Shown piece by piece: positions 35,336 to 36,874 of a DNA stretch of 64,000 nucleotides. Positions within the stretch are counted from its first letter, which is position 1, and every line of letters begins with the position of its first letter. Below the pieces are notes generated by a model that searched no databases, was not told the DNA's origin, and worked only from the letters and a program-made list of their open reading frames with translations. The stretch comes from Psittacicella melopsittaci (GTDB taxonomy: Bacteria > Pseudomonadota > Gammaproteobacteria > Enterobacterales > Psittacicellaceae): assembly GCF_003585925.1 (NCBI RefSeq), contig NZ_NRJH01000051.1, forward strand, positions 1-64,000. The letters are read 5' to 3'. Both the position numbers and the translations under genes were made by a program.

Positions 35336-36634
35336 TTAGATTTCATTTAAGAAAGCTAAAACTAAAGCTAAAACTACCCCAAAGATAATTAAGTAAATGA
35401 ATTTACGATAAGCACTGCTACCATCGCGTATATCACTTTGGCGTTTACTTTCTTTAGCTTGATCAACTACATCTCTATTAACCAGTTTTTTAGCATTTTT
35501 AAGACGAAGTTTTTGATACTGCTCTGCCGTAACATTTAACGCCTTTAAGTAATCTTGGTTAATTTCTTTGGCAGCTTCTAGAGCTTGATCAGCATCTACA
35601 AGTTTTAATGTTTTGAAATACTCAGCAATTGGACCTGCAAAAGCTTGTCTTGCTTGCTCAGTTACAGGAGAACTACCTTCTTCTAAAGGTTTTTCTAGTT
35701 TAGTTACAAAGTTTTCAAACTCGATATAATCAAAAATCTTAATTAGAGTTTGGCTTTGGGCAAAGGTTGCAAAGTTTTCTTCCTTGCCTAGATGCCAAGC
35801 ACGACCTATAGCTGCTAATTCTGTATTTGTGCCGCCACGATTATCACTGGTATACTCATGTGTTATGTAAAGAGCTTGAGCATAAATAGAACTATTGTCA
35901 AAGCCTTTAATTTGTAATAAAGGCTGAGTTAAGTTAAAGCCTAGTTTTTTGTGCAGTAAGACAAAAATTGTGGCATAGGTGCCCAGATATATTGCCCCAA
36001 AGCCATAGCTAAAAAGAAACTCGTATACTGTATCAAGAATTTGTTCAGCTTCAGGAGTATCTTCTTGCACGCGAGAAAAGGCATATAAAAATAGAGCGTG
36101 CGTAAAATCAAATTGTTGATCACGCTTTTTCGTTTGGAAATCGTCAGCAACTACATCGTCAATTTCTTTAGGTTTACTTGCTAATTTAGCTTTAAACTGC
36201 TCATATTGCTCTTGAGTTAACGCCTCTTGGTGCACACAGTTATTACTTGTAAAGTAAGCATTTACGCAATAGTTTAAAATTGCGGTACGAAGTAGATTAC
36301 GACGCAGGCTTGGTTTTTGTTGGTTAACTCTTAAAACTTCGGCAGTTAAAAGGTTAGAAAAGCTTTCTAAGCTAATTACTAAAGAATAACTAAAAGGTTG
36401 TACTTCTGAGTCTTCAAGAACTTCTGAGTAAAAAATACCATGAAACGAGCGGTTATTAGAGCCAATGCGATTGTTTTCTAGTTGAAAACGCGAAGCTATA
36501 CCATCAGTAAAAGTATCACTTAAAGTCGAGTGGGTATAGAGATCAGAAAATTTTAAAATATCATTACTTTGATGTAAAAAAGTTAATACCTTATCCAAGT
36601 TCTCTGGATTGCTGATTGGAAAGTGTAAGCTCAT
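35336..36634 (-). CDS. Tail-anchored protein of unknown function, predicted phase-variable
   Basis: I do not recognise the family. The 432-residue product (from ATG at 36634, with GGAG 8 nt upstream) has no signal peptide. The body is soluble, with possible helical repeats in the second half and a charged linker (KNAKKLVNRDVVDQAKESKR). A single membrane segment lies at the extreme C terminus (KFIYLIIFGVVLALVLAFL), leaving only three residues after it. This makes it a tail-anchored inner-membrane protein facing the cytoplasm. A TTG start 23 codons upstream is open but less likely. Its predicted promoter has a run of nine C (minus strand) between the -35 and -10 boxes, so expression may switch by slippage. 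Transcription ends at 35285-35316. Confidence 0.8.
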   Translation of the reverse strand: MSLHFPISNPENLDKVLTFLHQSNDILKFSDLYTHSTLSDTFTDGIASRFQLENNRIGSNNRSFHGIFYSEVLEDSEVQPFSYSLVISLESFSNLLTAEVLRVNQQKPSLRRNLLRTAILNYCVNAYFTSNNCVHQEALTQEQYEQFKAKLASKPKEIDDVVADDFQTKKRDQQFDFTHALFLYAFSRVQEDTPEAEQILDTVYEFLFSYGFGAIYLGTYATIFVLLHKKLGFNLTQPLLQIKGFDNSSIYAQALYITHEYTSDNRGGTNTELAAIGRAWHLGKEENFATFAQSQTLIKIFDYIEFENFVTKLEKPLEEGSSPVTEQARQAFAGPIAEYFKTLKLVDADQALEAAKEINQDYLKALNVTAEQYQKLRLKNAKKLVNRDVVDQAKESKRQSDIRDGSSAYRKFIYLIIFGVVLALVLAFLNEI

Positions 36635-36730
36635 GAGGTAAACTCCAAAATTAAGTATGTGCTTATTGTTATTGTTTAAACTATAATAAAATTTGCCAAG
36701 CAAGCCCTAAAAAAAGCGCCTGTTCTTTCG

Positions 36731-36757
36731 ATTATAGCACGAGTGGGGGGGGGTAAA
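36731..36757 (-). promoter_or_regulatory. Promoter with C9 tract in the spacer
   Basis: On the minus strand TTTACC (36752-36757) and a perfect TATAAT (36731-36736) are separated by 15 bp that include seven of the nine C residues (G9 on the plus strand, 36745-36753). Two more C would give the optimal 17-bp spacer. The predicted start lies about 90 nt before the ATG of the tail-anchored protein. Confidence 0.7.
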
Positions 36758-36831: not shown

Positions 36832-36874
36832 CAAAAAAAGATCCTCACAGCCAAAAAGGTTGTGAGGATTTTTT
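36832..36874 (-). terminator. Terminator of mnmG
   Basis: A 12-bp stem ATCCTCACAGCC / GGTTGTGAGGAT (36841-36852 and 36858-36869, one G-U pair), followed on the minus strand by a T-run. Confidence 0.9.

Follow-up and report, generated by a model that had tools for sequence, protein, structure and literature searches.

A nine-C tract beside an extended -10 promoter of Psittacicella melopsittaci, a candidate graded tuner of a tail-anchored protein gene

A run of nine C stands just upstream of an extended -10 motif in the window, the 64,000-nucleotide stretch of Psittacicella melopsittaci DNA analysed here. The tract is real and non-random, and it is probably hypermutable. We propose, with roughly even confidence, that it tunes the promoter of a gene for a 432-aa tail-anchored protein in a graded manner, with expression strongest near 11 C.

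Results

The site occupies positions 36731-36757 and reads CTTTACCCCCCCCCACTCGTGCTATAATCG on the minus strand; the promoter region, on the same strand, is also written out as AACTCTTTACCCCCCCCCACTCGTGCTATAATCGAAAG. A perfect -10 element, TATAAT (36731-36736), is directly preceded by TGC (36737-36739), which makes the site a perfect extended -10 motif, TGnTATAAT. Upstream lie the homopolymer (36745-36753, nine G on the plus strand), at promoter positions of about -29 to -21, and a weak candidate -35 box, TTTACC (36752-36757), which matches TTGACA at 4 of 6 positions across a 15-bp spacer. The coordinates confirm the original prediction of a tract with TTTACC and a perfect TATAAT 15 bp apart on this strand; that prediction did not mention the TGC. 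The prediction had also described the spacer as mostly the nine-C run; the run is real, but the spacer reads CCCCCCC+ACTCGTGC and the first two C end the TTTACC box, so only seven of the nine C lie inside it. Transcription is predicted, from the position of the -10 element, to start at 36724 with a 90-nt leader before the 432-aa gene (35336-36634, minus strand). The tract sits 110 bp upstream of the ATG, which places it, with its nine units, just inside a published cut-off for phase variability, which asks for a poly-G/C tract of at least 9 units no further than 200 bp from the ATG (PMC5953494). A table of spacer against tract length, computed for 6-15 C, gives 15 bp at 9 C, 16 at 10, 17 at 11 and 18 at 12; two extra C thus yield the 17-bp spacer that had been predicted.

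The predicted sigma-70 extended -10 promoter (TGCTATAAT) of the tail-anchored gene is, judged by its motif and setting, genuine. In 466 kb of Psittacicella DNA, 30 of the 33 copies of TGnTATAAT are intergenic against 21.7% expected (p = 3e-17), and the majority lie a short way upstream of a gene start. The genome under study holds 241 copies on the forward and reverse strands together, against 153 for the reversed control pattern. The copy at the site is likewise intergenic and at promoter distance from its gene. Its 13-mer core, CTCGTGCTATAAT (36731-36743), is identical to the core of the orthologue's promoter in a sister species (G002:C28); the four genomes contain three copies of this core, every one upstream of a gene, the third being 58 bp upstream of a transporter gene. 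In addition, the intrinsic terminator of mnmG (36840-36872, minus strand; -17.1 kcal/mol, z -5.9) lies upstream of the promoter and isolates the 432-aa gene, which means that the gene needs a promoter of its own. The extended -10 motif, the conserved core and the mnmG terminator together uphold the earlier assignment of a promoter to this gene.

The -35 side of the promoter is another matter. The -10 element is well supported, but the -35 box is just 4/6 at 15 bp and is not conserved in the orthologue. The orthologous protein is 65% identical over its full length, and its promoter keeps CTCGTGCTATAAT while elsewhere the two intergenic regions show no recognisable similarity; when checked, it had no C tract and no -35 match. 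A DNA search with the site through the four Psittacicella genomes returned the window's own copy only, a viral collection gave no match to it, and the relatives of the gene in other genomes have TATAAT-type promoters and no tract. Across the genus, a preference for a -35 at 17 bp is seen in TATAAT sites without TG, of which 10 in 72 match it at 4 or more positions and 4 at 5 or more; the sites with TG show no such preference (1 of 17). Considering the perfect TGnTATAAT and an orthologous promoter with neither tract nor -35 match, this promoter probably does not depend on a -35 box that slippage could move.

This bears directly on the idea of a classical phase-variable promoter with ON/OFF or three-level output, as in Neisseria porA, opc and fetA, in which the -35 would be needed and the promoter would be OFF, or nearly so, at 9 C and ON at 11 C. 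Such a switch would agree with the placing of TTTACC at 17 bp with 11 C only, with the 17-bp preference of the non-TG promoters (10 of 72), with the fetA poly-C between -10 and -35, which ranges from 10 to 14 among strains (PMC5320596; PMC5953494), and with the fact that most extended -10 promoters are still helped by -35 contacts (PMC2613000). It is opposed by the perfect TGnTATAAT, by the TG promoters of the genus with their 1 of 17, and by a TTTACC box of only 4/6 in a promoter whose orthologue has neither -35 match nor tract. We therefore consider a switch unlikely and a graded dimmer likelier; the original prediction of ON and OFF states set by spacer length is weakened by the same three observations, namely the extended -10, the lack of a genus -35 preference with TG and the orthologue.

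The run itself is well beyond what composition would give. The source genome is a 99-contig draft of 2.29 Mb, with the site on contig C47; the window has a G+C content of 36%, and the longest other G/C run in it is 6. When long-run counts are extrapolated from the run-length decay, runs of at least 9 are expected 0.016 times per 64-kb window, in line with the original description of such a run as exceptional in AT-rich DNA, and 0.57 times per 2.29-Mb genome, where 5 were found (Poisson p = 3e-4). Over four Psittacicella genomes, one per species cluster, there are 29 such runs against 2.3 expected and just 6 runs of exactly 8, the opposite of compositional decay; this shape fits slippage growth or selection, not composition. 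An error of sequencing or assembly, or a chance run that has become fixed, is a very improbable explanation of the tract. Homopolymers are error-prone and the draft is fragmented, but a length error of 1-2 would leave the run standing, and the excess of 29 against 2.3 is seen across four separate assemblies. With 5-10 tracts per genome, Psittacicella lies somewhat under the 15 poly-G tracts of each meningococcal genome and overlaps the 1-7 of most commensal Neisseria (PMC5953494); its poly-G repertoire recalls the phasome of Neisseria.

The position of the tract is also unusual. Among 24 tracts not wholly in a called gene, this is the only one with a complete extended -10 motif at promoter distance (p = 0.002 per scan). 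A general location of tracts in promoter spacers was considered and rejected: no other of the 24 has such a motif nearby, and the mean score of the tracts is that of the background. A repeated element combining TTTACC with the tract was considered as well; several P. hinzii intergenic tracts have (T)TTACCCC...GAC, which shows that TTTACC beside a C run is not a -35 signature in itself. It is possible, though less likely, that the tract is a passive product of slippage, its length free to vary and transcription unaffected, either because the extended -10 suffices or because another start is used. Indeed, the other 23 of the 24 tracts have no convincing -10 nearby, and tracts arise where nothing is switched, some between convergent genes (L075) and one, surely incidental like some others in the genus, in a conserved Gly-Gly-Gly motif of a lysA-like gene (L067). 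A weaker alternative promoter-like site, TTGGCA-17-AACAAT (36671-36699, minus strand; 1 found against 0.7 expected by chance), lies downstream of the tract. However, a tract at most 8 bp from a conserved -10 is a coincidence expected about 0.1 times over 48 scans, and promoters are usually influenced by the composition and length of their spacers.

Other poly-G/C tracts of the genus lie in or near genes of several kinds. Inside genes, we found a G8 tract in an N6/N4 DNA methylase gene (L048), a C9 tract in a D12-type methyltransferase gene (L056), a C11 tract in another, whose reading frame is broken at the tract (L049), and C9 tracts in the genes of a fused HsdM/HsdS-like protein (L050) and a TonB receptor (L046). 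Upstream of genes, the window's own genome has a G9 tract 169 bp before a BexC/CtrB/KpsE-like capsule-export gene (L047, G000:C75, 4517-4525), a siderophore receptor gene has an intergenic tract before it (L070), and glycerophosphotransferase-like genes are preceded by one tract in L072 and two in L073. The genes with internal tracts belong to classes known to be phase-variable in other organisms. The presence of tracts at such gene classes, together with a tract length at the cut-off, supports the original prediction in part; its porA/opc analogy describes the geometry well and probably overstates the switch.

Several of these loci have features of their own. At the split D12-like frame of P. 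hinzii B96_3 (L049, 4959-5838), intact paralogues lie nearby, making it a candidate phase-variable methyltransferase. At the glycerophosphotransferase-like capsule genes, an intrinsic terminator hairpin follows a G10-G12 tract at a distance of about 25-30 nt (L073, G002:C212, 9583-9592 and 7889-7898; L072, G002:C146, 7246-7257). Each of the two L073 tracts has a copy of TGCTATAAT some 110 nt upstream, which puts both of them within the leader, where they may form part of a phase-variable attenuator. Several long intergenic C tracts of P. hinzii B96_3 (L051, L052, L055) have flanks in common, TTA-C(9-12)-GAC and then TTGATTTTT, and may represent a small element dispersed in the genome. Two contigs (L069 and L074; G002:C112 and C223) carry one and the same 2666-aa open frame, in which a G8 tract stands at position 608; either a large gene has been duplicated or the assembly contains it twice.

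The 432-aa protein is predicted to be all-helical with one C-terminal membrane helix (about 409-431; model pLDDT 84), and no Pfam, NCBIfam, PHROG, PDB-sequence or fold match was found for it. Distant relatives (16-21% identity) are present in all four genomes of Psittacicella, an avian lineage of Pasteurellales, with none in 55 other genomes of the order and none in GTDB contigs; among the genomes searched, the family is seen only in this genus. The window's mnmG is 90-92% identical to that of P. hinzii strains B96_3 and 111, and in B96_3 it is followed directly by a uracil-permease gene, so the 432-aa gene is absent from that place.

Discussion

Comparable arrangements have been described. 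First, in Neisseria fetA/frpB, opc and porA, as here, a C/G homopolymer of about 9-14 units lies in the -35/-10 spacer, and tract length would change the distance between -35 and -10 (PMC5320596); the opc tract is polycytidine (PMC9072670). Unlike those genes, the Psittacicella gene is not a known outer-membrane protein gene, and the variation and the effect of its tract are predicted. The Psittacicella site also has a TGC extension before TATAAT, which may be a further difference. Second, lambda Pre*, galP1 and cysG share with this site a TGn before the -10 and a poor or missing -35 (PMC2613000), but no upstream homopolymer tract is described for them there. TGn with a consensus -10 acts without any -35 in lambda Pre*, although most extended -10 promoters still gain from -35 or upstream contacts (PMC2613000). 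Third, in N. meningitidis nspA a 5A/6A homopolymer just upstream of the -10 alters the expression level; that tract is a short A run not shown to be phase-variable (PMC6389960), whereas the Psittacicella tract has nine C. The type of switch is already known. Our literature search found no phase-variation work for Psittacicella, which seems to be without an earlier description of one.

For the graded tuner, we envisage that an expanded C tract prone to slippage has come to occupy the upstream half of an extended -10 promoter. Replication slippage would add or remove C at an appreciable frequency, and each change would shift TTTACC relative to the -10, to 15, 16, 17 and 18 bp at 9, 10, 11 and 12 C. 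Since TGnTATAAT would carry most of the promoter activity, graded expression is expected instead of a full ON/OFF change: the promoter would work as a dimmer, with a basal level at every length, including 9 C, and a modest rise to a top near 11 C. Several points speak against this tuner. Nine C only just reaches the published cut-off, the length at which slippage is slowest; the tract, missing from the orthologue, is not conserved; the strong TGnTATAAT means that a change of length may have no measurable effect; and the -35 is still 4/6 even at 11 C. A benefit to the cell is conceivable, but there is no indication that the protein is surface-exposed, and the usual selection argument is thereby weakened.

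If the tuner operates, expression of the 432-aa protein could differ randomly from cell to cell. On a broader and more tentative view, Psittacicella may possess a phasome of poly-G/C tracts in which the extended -10 tract is a graded tuner that always leaves a basal level of expression and the capsule-leader tracts act just before terminators. If tract length sets expression, a promoter-type contingency locus would be added in Psittacicella, and the site would offer a test of a homopolymer that tunes, instead of switching, an extended -10 promoter. More useful than the single site is the broader finding of expanded poly-G/C tracts throughout the genus at methyltransferase, capsule and siderophore-receptor loci.
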